Assembly: GCA_905182655.1 (NCBI GenBank)
Contig: CAJJCN010000036.1
Coordinates: 1-60,070 of the forward strand
Source of the DNA: Flammeovirgaceae bacterium UBA4465
Lineage (GTDB): Bacteria; Bacteroidota; Bacteroidia; Cytophagales; Cyclobacteriaceae
Length of the DNA stretch: 60,070 nt
Direction of reading: 5' to 3'
Shown: in pieces, positions 38,530 through 45,702 of the stretch
How positions within the stretch are numbered: the stretch's first letter is position 1
How the letters are laid out: each line of letters opens with the position of its first letter
Notes under the pieces: generated by a model
The model's input: the letters and a program-made list of their open reading frames with translations, nothing else
Told to the model about the DNA's origin: nothing
Databases searched by the model: none
Translations under genes and position numbers: made by a program

Positions 38530-39660
38530 TTGAAAAAAATAAATAAAAAACGGAGAATTTTTCTCAAAAAATCTATTCAATCTGTAGCCGCAGCCAGTAC
38601 TTTCGGTCTGGCCAGTTGTCAAACGGACGCTGCTCAAAATGTTCAAAAAGGCCCCTACATCAACTTCAATAATACCTATCGATGGAAGATGACCACTACT
38701 TGGTCTCCTAATTTTCCTATATTGGGTGAGGGGTGTAATGAACTTGCACAATGGGTTAAAAAAATGTCTGGAGGACGATTGGAAATTACCGTCTATGGTG
38801 GTGGTGAATTAATTCCAGCGCTCGAAGGCTTCGATGCGGTAAGCAATGGGGCCGTAGAAATGAATCATGGATCAGCCTATTATTGGGCGGGTAAGCTTCC
38901 TGCGGGTCAATTCCTTTCAACCATCCCTTTTGGTGTAAATGCCCAACTAATGGATACCTGGATTCTTTGCAATGGAGGTCAAAAATTATGGGAAGAGCTC
39001 TATGCACCTTTCGACTTACTCCCCATCAGTGCAGGAAATACAGGTTGCCAAATGGGTGGGTGGTTCAATAGAGAAATCAACAGTATCGATGATTTAAAAG
39101 GCCTTAAAATGCGCATGCCTGGCTTGGGGGGGAAGGTATTGGCGAAAGCTGGAGGTACGCCTATGCTCATGGCTGGTGGAGAAATATATACCAATTTGGA
39201 AAGAGGCGTAATCGATGCTACTGAATGGATTGGTCCGTATCATGATTACCTGATGGGATTCCATAATGTGGCTAAATATTATTATTACCCAGGTTGGCAT
39301 GAATTAGGTACCGTATTGGAAATGCTGGTCAATAAGTCAAAATTTGAAGCCCTTCCTACAGATTTACAAGAAATCATTCGAACAGCATGTCTTCGTTTGA
39401 ATCGAATCGTTCCCATTAAATTTGATACGATGAACGCCACCTATTTACCAAAGATTCAAGCAGAACCCACGGTGAGTATGAGACCTTATCCTGATGCAGT
39501 GATGGACAATCTAAGAGAGAAAACCATTGAAACCATTACCGAATTAACGGAACAAGATCCACAAAGTAAAAAAATCTATTCGGCCTTTTTGGAATTTCAA
39601 AAAAAAATTATCCCTTGGACCCAAATCACAGAAAAACCTTTTTATTCAAAAATGATATGA
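38530..39660 (+). CDS. TRAP transporter substrate-binding lipoprotein (DctP/TakP family), Tat-type signal
   Basis: A 376-aa extracytoplasmic binding protein. It starts at TTG 38530; the N-terminus has a twin-arginine motif, KRRIFLKKS, a hydrophobic stretch and Cys29 (GLASCQTD), so it appears to be a Tat-exported lipoprotein. WKMTTTWSPNFPILGEGC, VSNGAVEMNHGSAYYW, LKMRMPGLGGKVLAKAGGTPMLMAGGEIYTNLERGVIDATEWIGPY and GWHELGTVLEM mark the TakP-like branch, which binds alpha-keto or hydroxy acids with the conserved Arg in MRMPG. Normally DctQ and DctM membrane subunits are adjacent; none is in this window. The next gene, a secreted amidase, overlaps its stop by four bases, suggesting a joint task. 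Confidence 0.88.
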   Translation: MKKINKKRRIFLKKSIQSVAAASTFGLASCQTDAAQNVQKGPYINFNNTYRWKMTTTWSPNFPILGEGCNELAQWVKKMSGGRLEITVYGGGELIPALEGFDAVSNGAVEMNHGSAYYWAGKLPAGQFLSTIPFGVNAQLMDTWILCNGGQKLWEELYAPFDLLPISAGNTGCQMGGWFNREINSIDDLKGLKMRMPGLGGKVLAKAGGTPMLMAGGEIYTNLERGVIDATEWIGPYHDYLMGFHNVAKYYYYPGWHELGTVLEMLVNKSKFEALPTDLQEIIRTACLRLNRIVPIKFDTMNATYLPKIQAEPTVSMRPYPDAVMDNLREKTIETITELTEQDPQSKKIYSAFLEFQKKIIPWTQITEKPFYSKMI

Positions 39661-41309
39661 GGTATAAAGAATATTTTAAGCTTTGGAATGTTTTGCTTTT
39701 CCTCTTATTATGCGGTTTTTTCCATTCACCCGTCAAGGGTCAAGACAGTCTCAGAATTACTTCGGCCTTCATCGGTTTAGACTTTGATTCGGCAGAACTT
39801 TCACAAATGAAACCTACGATAGCCGCACATCTTTTACAATTTAATGCCTTACGAAGACAGGATATTTCAAATAATATGCCCTTAGGCTTAATTTGGATCC
39901 CACCGGTAAATCATTCTCGTATCCCAACCAAGCAAGCCCCCATTGATTGGCATCTTCCCACCACTGTCTCTCTGCCAAAAGATAAAAGTGAATTGGCTTT
40001 TTATCCCGTAAATAAATTGGCTTACCTGATTAAAAATAGGCAAATCACTTCTGTAGAATTAACCCAATTGTTTCTCAATCGACTGAAAAAATATGGTGAT
40101 ACCTTGCAATGTGTCATCACCATAACGGATTCGTTGGCCCTCAGTCAAGCCCAGCGAGCAGATCTTGAAATCAGTCAAGGCATCTATCGGGGACCGCTAC
40201 ACGGCATTCCCTATGGTGCCAAGGATTTATTAAATGTGGCTGGATATAAGACGACTTGGGGTGCGGCTCCTTTTAAATCACAAATGTTTGCTGAAAATGC
40301 TGAAATAATTAACCGATTAGAAGTTGCAGGCGCGGTATTGGTTGCCAAATTAACTTTGGGTGCCCTGGCCTGGGGTGACGTTTGGTATGGTGGTAAAACC
40401 AGAAATCCGTGGGATCTTGAGCAAGGCAGCAGTGGATCTTCAGCAGGATCAACATCCGCAACAGTAGCCGGATTGGTCCCTTTTGCGATTGGAAGCGAAA
40501 CCCGGGGTTCTATTGTTTCTCCATCTACTCGATGTGGCGCTACGGGACTGCGTCCCACTTTTGGACGCGTAAGCAAAGATGGAGCCATGGCGCTCAGTTG
40601 GACCATGGATAAATTAGGACCGATTTGCAGAAATGCCTTAGACTGTGCATTGGTACTCGAAGCCATCAGAGGAACCGATGGCAAAGACCTCTCGGTAAGA
40701 GACGCTCCCTTTAACTATCATTATGATTCAACGATAAAAAACCTTCGTATTGGGGTGCTTACTCATGATCAAAATCCTGATTTTTATTCAGAAAATGACC
40801 AAAATACTTTGTCATTATTGAAATCTCAAGGATACGATCTGGTCGAAAAAAAATTACCAGAAAATGTGCCCACGGAAGCCTTGGGTTTTATCCTGCAAGC
40901 AGAAGCCGCTGCTGCCTTTGATTTTCTTACCCAATCAAATCAAGATAGCCTGATGGTCAGACAAATAGATAATGCGTGGCCCAATGTGTTTAGAGCGGCT
41001 CAATTGATTCCAGCCGTAGCTTATATTCAGGCCAATAGATTGAGATATGAACTTACCTTGCAATTCAACGAATTAATGTCTGATATCGATGTATTAGTGG
41101 CCCCCTCATTCAGTCAGCAATTATTAATGACCAATCTCACGGGTCATCCATGTGTGGTGATTCCCAATGGCTCCTATGCCGATGAAAATCCAGGATCCAT
41201 CACACTCTTGGGAAATCATTTCGATGAGGCAAGTATTTTGTCCTTGGCGCGCTTTCTACAAGAAATTACCCCTTATGATAAAGAACATCCCGATTTGTTC
41301 AGGCCCTAG
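39657..41309 (+). CDS. Secreted amidase (amidase signature family)
   Basis: A 550-aa enzyme with a signal peptide of about 29 residues (LLLCGFFHSPVKGQ). The ATG at 39657 overlaps the TRAP gene stop (ATGA), which decides the start. The Ser-cisSer-Lys triad is seen: Lys in PYGAKDLLNV (about 189), cis-Ser in GSSGSSAGSTSAT (about 258-270) and the nucleophile Ser in ETRGSIVSPS (about 283). Such enzymes cleave amides to acid and ammonia or act on other C-N bonds; the substrate is unknown. Being exported and co-transcribed with a TRAP binder, it may release an acid from an external amide for uptake. This is inference. A 157-codon antisense frame inside it is a shadow. Confidence 0.9.
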   Translation: MRYKEYFKLWNVLLFLLLCGFFHSPVKGQDSLRITSAFIGLDFDSAELSQMKPTIAAHLLQFNALRRQDISNNMPLGLIWIPPVNHSRIPTKQAPIDWHLPTTVSLPKDKSELAFYPVNKLAYLIKNRQITSVELTQLFLNRLKKYGDTLQCVITITDSLALSQAQRADLEISQGIYRGPLHGIPYGAKDLLNVAGYKTTWGAAPFKSQMFAENAEIINRLEVAGAVLVAKLTLGALAWGDVWYGGKTRNPWDLEQGSSGSSAGSTSATVAGLVPFAIGSETRGSIVSPSTRCGATGLRPTFGRVSKDGAMALSWTMDKLGPICRNALDCALVLEAIRGTDGKDLSVRDAPFNYHYDSTIKNLRIGVLTHDQNPDFYSENDQNTLSLLKSQGYDLVEKKLPENVPTEALGFILQAEAAAAFDFLTQSNQDSLMVRQIDNAWPNVFRAAQLIPAVAYIQANRLRYELTLQFNELMSDIDVLVAPSFSQQLLMTNLTGHPCVVIPNGSYADENPGSITLLGNHFDEASILSLARFLQEITPYDKEHPDLFRP

Positions 41310-41350
41310 TCATTTTCTCCTTAAAGCATCTGATCTTTCTTAAAAGTATC

Positions 41351-41402
41351 TATTACTTACCTATTAATATTACATTAATGTAATATTAATAGGTAAGTAA
41401 TA
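41351..41402. repeat. 52-bp perfect palindrome
   Basis: Two 26-nt arms meet with no spacer: 41351-41376 and 41377-41402 are exact reverse complements, centred between 41376 and 41377 (ACATT|AATGT). It lies 42 bases after the amidase stop and 100 bases before the polymerase start. No long T run follows. It could act as a hairpin terminator or an RNase III target in RNA, a cruciform in DNA, or a large operator. Confidence 0.95.
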
Positions 41403-41479
41403 TTTATTTGACTTTACTGATTCTTTTTAATAAAAAAACTGAAAATTAGGCTCTAAATATTTCAAACTATTTAAATTAG

Positions 41480-41504
41480 CATTTACTAAAAATATTAGTA
41501 AATG
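41480..41504. repeat. Inverted repeat covering the polymerase start codon
   Basis: CATTTACTAA (41480-41489) and TTAGTAAATG (41495-41504) are exact 10-nt reverse complements around a 5-nt AT centre. The second arm contains the ATG at 41502. In RNA this would hide the start codon; in DNA it resembles an operator for a dimeric repressor at the transcription or translation start. Confidence 0.75.
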
Positions 41505-44474
41505 TTTATCAACAACCACAGCTATTTTAGCCTTCGATACGGAACCGTCGCTCCTGAATCTATCCTCAAGATGGCTCAAAAAAAGGGTATTAAAACATTG
41601 GCACTTACCGATATTAACAATACCTCTGCTTCTCTGGATTTCGTCCGTCTGGCCCCTAAATACAATGTAAAGCCCGTATTGGGTATAGATTTTAGAAATA
41701 ACGGCATACAACAATTTATCATTTTGGCTCAAAATAATAATGGATTTCAACAGATCAATACGTACCTGTCCAGCTTTGCGGACGTATCCGATATCCCTGA
41801 GCAGGCAAAGACCTTAGAGGATACGGTTGTGATTTACCCCTACACTAAATGCCGCCATTTTATATTAAAAAAAAATGAATTCTTGGGTGTCAATAGAGAG
41901 CATATCCCTGAACTTGAATACAGCAGAGTATCCCTCAATATCGATAAAATCCTTATTCTTCATACCTCCTCTTTTAGAGATAAAAAAGATTTCAATACAC
42001 ATCGGTTACTCCGAGCCATCGATCAAAATACCTTACTAAGTAAACTCTCTTTAAATACACAAGGTCAAGTCACTGACTTATATATCGATGAAAAGCTACT
42101 TCAATACCAATTTGCCGCATGGCCCAAACTCATTGAAAACACGTATCAGCTACTCGATCAATGCACGATCTCCTTTGATTTCGAACACATACATTCCCAA
42201 AATCAAGAAACTTTTTCGGGTGACGGAAAAAAAGATTTTGAATTACTCAAAACACTATGTGAACAAGGGCTCCCTTATCGATATCCCAATCCCAATGAAA
42301 TCATTCTCAATCGAATAGAGAAGGAATTAAATATCATTCATCAAAAAAACTTTGTCTCCTATTTTCTCATAAATTGGGAAATCATCAACTACGCAAGAAG
42401 CAAAGGCTATTTTTATGTCGGAAGAGGCAGTGGCGCCAATAGTATCGTTGCTTATCTACTCAGAATTACAGATGTTGATCCGGTAGAACTTGATCTGTAT
42501 TTTGAACGATTCATTAATTTTTATCGAAAAACTCCTCCAGACTTTGACCTTGACTTTTCTTGGCGTGATCGAAATGATGTCATCGATTTTATTTTTAAAC
42601 GATTCACCCATACGGCACTCATTGCCGTCTACAATACTTTTCAATATCGTGCCTCAATACGTGAACTCGGTAAAGTATTTGGCCTTCCCAAACATGAAAT
42701 AGATCTCCTTTCAAAAGGGGCATCAACACAAGAACATACTTTTGATCAGCTCTCGAAATTGGTCATTACTTACGCCAAAAGAATTGAAGGATTTCCTAAT
42801 TACCTGGGCATTCATGCGGGAGGTATTGTGATTTCTGAAAGGCCTATTAACTATTATACGGCTACCTTCATACCGCCAAAAGGCTACGCTACTACTCATT
42901 TTGATATGGTCACAGCGGAAGACATCGGACTCTATAAGTTTGATATTCTAAGTCAAAGAGGATTAGGAAAAATCAAAGATACCCTAAGTGTTATCGCAAA
43001 AAACCATCCTAACACTTCCCCGGTGGATATTCATGATATCAAGCGCTTTAAAACTGATGGAAAAATAAAAAAACTACTCCGACTCGGCAAGGTCATAGGT
43101 TGCTTTTATGTAGAATCTCCTGCCATGCGCATGCTCCTCAAAAAACTACAAGTTGACAGCTATTTGGGATTGGTCGCAGCCAGCTCTATCATCAGGCCAG
43201 GCGTAGCCCGATCAGGTATGATGCAAGAATATATTTTAAGATGCCGCTTCCCCGATCGTATCAAAGAAGCGCACCCCATCATGTTAAAAATTATGCCAGA
43301 AACTTTTGGCATCATGGTCTATCAAGAAGATGTCATTAAAGTGGCTCATTATTATGGGAAACTTGATCTTGGAGAAGCCGATGTCCTACGTAGGGGGATG
43401 TCAGGGAAATACAGAGGACGATCAGAATTTACAGCGGTCAAAGAGAAGTTTTTCATGAACTGTGCAAAGGAAAAATATCCTATCGAAGAAGTGAATGAAG
43501 TTTGGAGGCAAATTGAAAGTTTCGCAGGTTATGCCTTTGCAAAAGGGCATTCGGCCTCCTATGCAGTAGAAAGCTATCAAAGCTTATTTCTCAAAGCCTA
43601 CTACCCCTTAGAATATTTAGTAGCCACCCTCAATAATTTTGGGGGATTTTATCAAACCGAACTCTATGTGCATGAAGCACGTATGCATGGTGCTATTGTT
43701 TCTCCTCCCTGTGTGAATACTGGCGAATTAGCTACCTCTATTTCAGGTAAACACATCATTCTTGGCTTTATTTTGGTTAAATCTATTGAGACCAGTACCA
43801 TACAAAAAATCGCTGCGCATCGAGAAAAGGAAGGCGTCTTTAAAGACTTAGATGATTTTATCGAACGCATGCCTCTCTCTATGGAACAACTCTCTCTTCT
43901 CATTAAAATTGAAGCTTTTCGATTTACGAAAAAAAATCCTTACGAATTGCTATGGGAAAGTCATATGAAGGTAAATAAAATAAATATGGAAGTACAGACT
44001 TTCAATCTGTTCAAAGTAGCACGAACAACCTACAAAATGCCCACGTTCAAGCAAATCCCCTTAGCTCATGCATTCAATGAAATGGAATATTTTGGATTCC
44101 CTCTTTGCAATCCTTTTGAATTACTGGTCACAAAAGTTACGCCTTCATTATCTGCAAAGGATTTAACGCATTACATCAATCAAGAGGTCATTGTATACGG
44201 GTATTTAGTTACCTACAAGAAAACACACACGCACACCGGAGCCCTCATGCAGTTTGGTAATTTTTTAGATCATACCGGTCATTTCATCGATACGGTTCAT
44301 TTCCCTCAAATCACCATTCTATATCCTTTTAGAGGCAGGGGTATTTACCTACTGAAAGGGATAGTTATGGAAGAATTCGATTGTATCCATATCAACATAA
44401 GCCAAATGGAATTTTTACCTATTGTAGAGGATCCTAGATATACTGATTTAAAAAAAGGAGAAAAAACCACATAA
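41502..44474 (+). CDS. dnaE: DNA polymerase III alpha-type polymerase (DnaE2/ImuC-like, probably translesion)
   Basis: A 990-aa C-family DNA polymerase, shorter than the replicative DnaE of Bacteroidota. The N-terminal PHP domain begins NNHSYFSLRYGT where the canonical form is HxHS, so the first metal His is Asn here. The polymerase palm shows GRGSGANSIVAYLLRITDVDP (about 306) and PDFDLDFSWRDR (about 346-357) with the catalytic Asp residues; HAGGIVIS, the third-Asp region TTHFDMVTAEDIGLYKFDILSQRGL, and a helix-hairpin-helix and OB-fold end follow. A DinB gene starts one base after its stop. The pairing with a Y-family polymerase indicates an error-prone, damage-tolerance role (inference); no lexA or imuA gene is in the window. 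Confidence 0.9.
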   Translation: MFINNHSYFSLRYGTVAPESILKMAQKKGIKTLALTDINNTSASLDFVRLAPKYNVKPVLGIDFRNNGIQQFIILAQNNNGFQQINTYLSSFADVSDIPEQAKTLEDTVVIYPYTKCRHFILKKNEFLGVNREHIPELEYSRVSLNIDKILILHTSSFRDKKDFNTHRLLRAIDQNTLLSKLSLNTQGQVTDLYIDEKLLQYQFAAWPKLIENTYQLLDQCTISFDFEHIHSQNQETFSGDGKKDFELLKTLCEQGLPYRYPNPNEIILNRIEKELNIIHQKNFVSYFLINWEIINYARSKGYFYVGRGSGANSIVAYLLRITDVDPVELDLYFERFINFYRKTPPDFDLDFSWRDRNDVIDFIFKRFTHTALIAVYNTFQYRASIRELGKVFGLPKHEIDLLSKGASTQEHTFDQLSKLVITYAKRIEGFPNYLGIHAGGIVISERPINYYTATFIPPKGYATTHFDMVTAEDIGLYKFDILSQRGLGKIKDTLSVIAKNHPNTSPVDIHDIKRFKTDGKIKKLLRLGKVIGCFYVESPAMRMLLKKLQVDSYLGLVAASSIIRPGVARSGMMQEYILRCRFPDRIKEAHPIMLKIMPETFGIMVYQEDVIKVAHYYGKLDLGEADVLRRGMSGKYRGRSEFTAVKEKFFMNCAKEKYPIEEVNEVWRQIESFAGYAFAKGHSASYAVESYQSLFLKAYYPLEYLVATLNNFGGFYQTELYVHEARMHGAIVSPPCVNTGELATSISGKHIILGFILVKSIETSTIQKIAAHREKEGVFKDLDDFIERMPLSMEQLSLLIKIEAFRFTKKNPYELLWESHMKVNKINMEVQTFNLFKVARTTYKMPTFKQIPLAHAFNEMEYFGFPLCNPFELLVTKVTPSLSAKDLTHYINQEVIVYGYLVTYKKTHTHTGALMQFGNFLDHTGHFIDTVHFPQITILYPFRGRGIYLLKGIVMEEFDCIHINISQMEFLPIVEDPRYTDLKKGEKTT

Positions 44475-44475
44475 T

Positions 44476-45702
44476 ATGATACAAGAAATAGCCGCTCGAA
44501 ACATTATGCACATTGATTTAGATACTTTTTTTGTCTCTTGTGAGCGCTTAATCAATAGCCGACTTATAGGTAAACCCATCTTAATTGGAGGTATTTCTGA
44601 TCGAGGTGTCGTCGCTTCTTGTAGTTATGAGGCTCGCCATTTTGGTATCCACTCGGCTATGCCTATGAAAATGGCTAAAAGACTCTGTCCTGAGGCCATC
44701 GTATTAAGAGGAAATTCAGAAACTTATTCCAAACATTCCCAAAACGTCACAGATATCATCCGAGAGGCGGTACCTCTTTACGAGAAAAGTTCGATTGACG
44801 AGTTCTATATTGATCTAACAGGGGTAGATAAATTTTATAGTTGCCAAAATTTTTCTTCTGAATTACGCCAAAAGATTATTAAAGAAACGGGTCTTCCTAT
44901 CTCTTTTGGATTGTCTTCCAACAAAACGGTCTCCAAAATAGCTACCAGCGAAGCAAAGCCTAATAACCAACTCAGTATTTTCAAAGGACATGAAAAACCC
45001 TTTTTAGCCCCCTTGTCTATTAGGAAAATTCCTATGGTGGGAGAAAAAACCTATCGTATATTATGTGACTTAGGTATTCGAAAAATTCAAACCCTTCAAG
45101 AAATGCCAGTCCATATGATCAGCAAAGTACTTGGTAAAAATGGCGCTGGACTTTGGAAAAAAGCAAATGGTATAGATCTTAGCCCGGTCATCTCTTATCA
45201 AGAGCGCAAATCCATATCTACAGAACGTACCTTCAATGTAGATACCATAGACATAGGTAAACTAAAGTCCCTACTGACGGCCATGGCAGAAAATCTTATT
45301 TTTCAATTGCGCAGGGGTAATAAACTGACAGCTTGTATCACCATAAAACTTCGATATTCAGACTTTCAAACCTATACAATACAAAAAAGAATTCCCTACA
45401 GCGCTTCAGATCAAGTCATTTTACCCATGGTAATGGCATTGTACGAAAAACTCTATCAAAAAAGGCTTCTGGTGCGATTGATAGGCGTCAAGTTCAGTCA
45501 TCTGGTAGGTGGAGGTCATCAAATTCATCTATTTGAAGATTCTGAAAATATGTTCAATCTATATCAAGCCATGGATAAGATTCGAGATAAATACGGAGAC
45601 CGCCTAGTTATGCGTGCTTCTGGCTTTGGCGCTAGAACCATTAGTAGGTGGAATCCATTCACGGGAGGCCCTCCTCCACTGCTTGCCAATCGTCGTGCCT
45701 AA
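44476..45702 (+). CDS. dinB: DNA polymerase IV, Y-family
   Basis: A 408-aa lesion-bypass polymerase. The palm metal ligands are in MHIDLDTFFVSCE (Asp14 region) and KSSIDEFYIDLTG (Asp and Glu, about 106-112); SYEARHFGIHSAMPM is the finger region; and the helix-hairpin-helix and little-finger domains follow. QIHLF near residue 353 resembles the beta-clamp-binding QLxLF motif. The gene follows the dnaE-type gene with a single base between stop and start, so both are made from one message. The conserved end, RWNPFTGGPPPLLANRR, is usual for this Bacteroidota type. Confidence 0.93.
   Translation: MIQEIAARNIMHIDLDTFFVSCERLINSRLIGKPILIGGISDRGVVASCSYEARHFGIHSAMPMKMAKRLCPEAIVLRGNSETYSKHSQNVTDIIREAVPLYEKSSIDEFYIDLTGVDKFYSCQNFSSELRQKIIKETGLPISFGLSSNKTVSKIATSEAKPNNQLSIFKGHEKPFLAPLSIRKIPMVGEKTYRILCDLGIRKIQTLQEMPVHMISKVLGKNGAGLWKKANGIDLSPVISYQERKSISTERTFNVDTIDIGKLKSLLTAMAENLIFQLRRGNKLTACITIKLRYSDFQTYTIQKRIPYSASDQVILPMVMALYEKLYQKRLLVRLIGVKFSHLVGGGHQIHLFEDSENMFNLYQAMDKIRDKYGDRLVMRASGFGARTISRWNPFTGGPPPLLANRRA

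Follow-up and report, generated by a model that had tools for sequence, protein, structure and literature searches.

What is a perfect 52-bp palindrome doing just ahead of a polymerase operon? The window, a stretch of 60,070 nucleotides from Flammeovirgaceae bacterium UBA4465, carries one in the gap between an amidase gene and a dnaE-dinB pair. An earlier reading of this DNA, made from the letters without database searches (the sequence-only reading), had offered several roles for it: an operator, a cruciform, an RNase III target or the relic of an inverted repeat element. The features on which an answer depends are the following:

39615 to 41309, + strand: amidase-family protein, upstream of the palindrome
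41351 to 41402, no strand assigned: perfect spacerless palindrome of 52 bp with 26-nt arms
41480 to 41504, no strand assigned: second inverted repeat, CATTTACTAA-AAATA-TTAGTAAATG, overlapping the dnaE start codon
41502 to 44474, + strand: DnaE-type polymerase III alpha subunit of 990 aa, with PHP, alpha NTPase, finger and HHH domains; DnaE2/ImuC-like by context
44476 to 45702, + strand: Y-family polymerase, DinB/ImuB-like, with IMS and IMS_C domains

The palindrome is as exact as had been claimed: its left half is TATTACTTACCTATTAATATTACATT, the exact reverse complement follows directly, and 41351-41402 equals its own reverse complement. Its placement was also described correctly, between the amidase ORF end at 41309 and the dnaE start at 41502; it lies 41 nt past the amidase stop, and the second inverted repeat, which starts at 41480, is 78 nt downstream of it. 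When the arms are extended to 33 nt they are 91% complementary, and the 52-bp stem has a G+C content of 15%, with 4 G-C pairs. From base composition, approximately 1.5e-10 such palindromes are expected by chance per 192-bp gap and approximately 1.5e-9 per 1.77-Mb genome, so the description "far beyond chance" was justified. In a hairpin census of 818 kb of the same genome, taken as stretches, this is the longest palindrome; all other perfect hairpins have arms of at most 22 nt, and the runner-up, with 22-nt arms, is a classical A-tract/T-tract terminator. An Rfam search of 41200-41600 returned only sub-threshold microRNA matches, which any long hairpin would be expected to give. The palindrome is present in a single copy in its own genome, and no second copy was found there or in nine genus relatives; a dispersed (REP/MITE-like) repeat would have several, and the relic of an inverted repeat element is not supported.

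The genus is represented by metagenome-assembled genomes of marine type that bear the label Cyclobacteriaceae or Flammeovirgaceae, and eight of them having dnaE with the gap were aligned: the genome under study (G000), G002, G003, G004, G006, G007, G008 and G009. A 48-bp perfect version stands at the same place in G007 and G008. The outer left edge reads CCC in G007, CTC in G008 and CTA in G000, and through these differences the last copy has two extra pairs. Spacerless palindromes can be generated by chimeric reads, but the recurrence of this one at the same place, with different outer bases, in the separately deposited assemblies G007 and G008 leaves an assembly or library artefact with a negligible probability; since three separate assemblies carry the palindrome, an artefact of one assembly is ruled out. 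G003 and G002 have no palindrome; in them the operon, the flanks and the greater part of the left arm are retained, while exactly 33 nt are missing:

41372 to 41404, + strand: the 33 nt missing in G003 and G002, drawn at the last of eight equivalent starts (41365 to 41372)

This eightfold ambiguity places the junction within a 7-bp direct repeat, TAATATT. In the more distant G004 and G009 the sequence is approximately 11 nt shorter than in G000 and non-palindromic, the bulk of the right arm being missing; positions 41353-41380, which cover the left arm and the centre, align to each of the two without gaps (20 of 28 bases). G004 retains a 5-bp CTTGC/GCAAG pair. The gap of G006 has diverged too far for a palindrome to be called.

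The suggestion that the palindrome is the operator of the polymerase operon is contradicted by this distribution, since close relatives without the palindrome still have the operon together with the upstream region and the CTAA-N5-TTAG repeat considered below. Nor is an essential role for the downstream operon supported, as G003 and G002 do without the palindrome. In large part the palindrome is what the sequence-only reading had set against its own proposal, a poorly conserved feature with no link to the downstream operon. A cruciform or an RNase III target is possible.

Identity varies along this locus. Between G000 and G007 or G008 it is mostly 98-100% near the palindrome (41100-42500) and approximately 91-95% in the amidase gene (39600-40800), the latter being similar to the identity with G003 and G002, a pattern that may point to recombination between species. 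In a tree of the flanks G000 has no firm placement, and this, taken with the varying local identity, suggests that alleles may have moved by recombination.

If the palindrome is not the operator, the second inverted repeat is a better candidate. Positions 41485-41499 read ACTAA..TTAGT, an exact fit to CTAA-N5-TTAG, which is the operator motif of a non-canonical LexA in Bacteroidetes, found upstream of SOS genes that include dinB, umuDC and imuA-imuB-dnaE2 (PMC8565304). All eight genus genomes that have the operon retain the repeat, even G006, in which the remainder of the gap has diverged; outside the genus, the motif occurs at most 60 nt upstream of the dnaE start in 5 of 21 loci. We regard 41485-41499, a copy of the motif upstream of an SOS gene, as most likely the operator of the operon and a candidate SOS (non-canonical LexA) site, and the dnaE-dinB operon as probably LexA-controlled. 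Of 10 genus genomes, 7 have matches to the S24 family, and most of these matches carry an HTH-like region at the N terminus; the genome under study, which is 81.5% complete, gave none. That genome has two further exact ACTAA-N5-TTAGT sites, one (C57:17521) at the 3′ end of a ketobutyrate-CoA-ligase-like gene and near a dapA-like gene, the other (C91:22268) inside a long ORF. Both were checked for neighboring SOS genes, and neither lends support to a regulon.

A separate observation concerns sites of the TTTACTAATATTTTTACTA type, which resemble CTAA-N5-TTAG half-sites. At L048 and L084-L089 they lie upstream of a phytoene-desaturase-like (carotenoid-type) gene that is divergent from an HTH-S24 gene cluster and next to the S24 repressor gene; autoregulation or shared control is possible.

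How, then, did the palindrome arise? We think it fairly probable that it is a lineage-restricted product of a replication template switch, one that is not the operon's operator and perhaps serves as a weak terminator for the amidase. The two arms would have had different origins:

41351 to 41376, + strand: left arm, the putative template, mostly common to the palindrome-free G003 and G002 and aligning to G004 and G009
41377 to 41402, + strand: right arm, the putative inverted copy of the left arm, with the direction of copying presumed

The bases that G000 has in excess of G004 and G009 sit in the right arm, which is the exact reverse complement of the left. One arm thus looks ancestral and the other inserted, as a template switch should leave them, with a polarity that comes from few outgroups. 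Template switching has been described as a source of perfect hairpins in RNA genes and, in E. coli, of quasipalindrome mutations (PMC8794818, PMC7202029). From the sequences compared we infer both the switch and its direction, as follows: (i) the nascent strand would pause at the short self-complementary CATTAATG; (ii) the paused strand would fold back and pair with itself, or else anneal to its counterpart; (iii) the adjacent left arm would be copied, giving the right arm; and (iv) the nascent strand would rejoin its original template near AAGT/AATATT. In the G003/G002 lineage, slippage between the TAATATT repeats could then have deleted either the insert or an older short segment; two events are needed either way, and the orders are equal in cost. 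As the product of a template switch, the palindrome would be nothing unusual, for this way of mutating is already known.

Several points weigh against this account. A palindrome-free intermediate from before the switch was not seen among the genomes compared, and the single-base differences at the left edge (CCC/CTC/CTA) are also explicable by selection for a longer stem. We rejected the idea that the two outer pairs arose as one hairpin-templated double change, G008 being a single-step intermediate. The direction of gain may also be reversed: an older palindrome deleted in G003 and G002 and decayed in G004 and G009 fits too, and the CTTGC/GCAAG pair left in G004 could be its remnant. In its full form, this alternative holds that a functional palindrome (an operator, cruciform or RNase III site) was ancestral to the genus. 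The presence of the deletion repeats agrees with it, as does a further AT-rich palindrome found in the genus ahead of an hsp20-like gene, which paired changes have kept perfect in three species. It requires, however, that species which have retained the operon lost the palindrome separately, and the outgroups have no conserved half-site; we consider it improbable. More speculative still, and in our estimation very improbable, is the notion that the genus repeatedly builds and re-perfects long palindromes rich in AT ahead of stress genes (dnaE-dinB, hsp20) as stress-sensitive DNA or RNA switches.

Two other palindromes of the genus deserve description. One (L143:13509-13559, G003:C9:353509-353559) is AT-rich, with 24-nt arms, a 3-nt gap and no T tract, and lies approximately 90 bp upstream of the Hsp20-like gene; it is perfect in G003, G007 and G005 (24-25-nt arms), with outer bases that differ and change in pairs, and imperfect in G002 and G008. 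The other (L138:11430-11475, G003:C9:251430-251475) is terminator-like, is built around GCCTCGATATCGAGGC and has 23-nt arms in G003; variants with shorter or imperfect arms occur in G008, G007, G002 and G000, as though the stem lengthened and shortened from one species to the next.

A palindrome born of a template switch could still act on the amidase transcript. The RNA of the region folds at -33.4 kcal/mol, against -10.1 for shuffles (z -10.5), and since it would fold into so strong a hairpin, weak termination or stabilization of that transcript is possible; we suggest that the palindrome may be a weak terminator or 3′-end stabilizer. The sequence-only reading had seen no T tract after the palindrome. 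This was partly right: a T-rich TTTATTTGACTT does follow the stem, but its d'Aubenton-type T-score of 4.5 is below the approximately 5-6.4 of the clear A-tract/T-tract terminators in the census. The stem is AT-rich and the tail weaker than theirs. The earlier doubt about a simple terminator was reasonable. A stronger version, in which the palindrome ends the amidase transcript as an intrinsic terminator and was selected because it shields the SOS operon from read-through, draws on its position 41 nt past the amidase stop, on the hairpin (-33.4 kcal/mol), on a scan that calls it terminator-like and on that tail score. The low G+C of the stem and a T-tail scoring below its own genome's clear terminators tell against selection for such a role, as does the absence of the palindrome from G003 and G002, in whose gap no other perfect hairpin of at least 8 pairs was found besides the LexA-type repeat. 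We hold selected insulation to be unlikely, although deserving of consideration, and any role that the palindrome might have in terminating the amidase transcript is dispensable.

The locus shows clearly, in a natural case, that closely related bacterial species can gain and lose a long perfect palindrome, and it warns that a conspicuous palindrome beside an operon is not necessarily that operon's operator. The regulatory link sought for the palindrome is carried instead by its neighbor, a likely SOS operator, and the CTAA-N5-TTAG site at dnaE would add an uncultured marine genus to those in which a Bacteroidetes LexA regulon is predicted.

Three known systems provide comparisons. Like intrinsic (Rho-independent) terminators, the palindrome would form a hairpin past a stop codon, and its tail is rich in T; unlike them, it has a long AT-rich stem and a weaker tail and is missing in sister species. 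The stem contains 4 G-C pairs, and the tail, TTTATTT, has the T-score of 4.5 given above. It shares with template-switch (quasipalindrome-type) mutations an inverted copy around a short self-complementary centre and perfect arms (PMC8794818, PMC7202029), whereas those mutations were observed and this one is deduced from few metagenome-assembled genomes, with the ancestor unseen. Finally, the 52-bp palindrome differs from the non-canonical Bacteroidetes LexA operator in having no CTAA-N5-TTAG motif; it is the segment at 41485-41499 that matches this operator exactly, and it sits at dnaE (PMC8565304).
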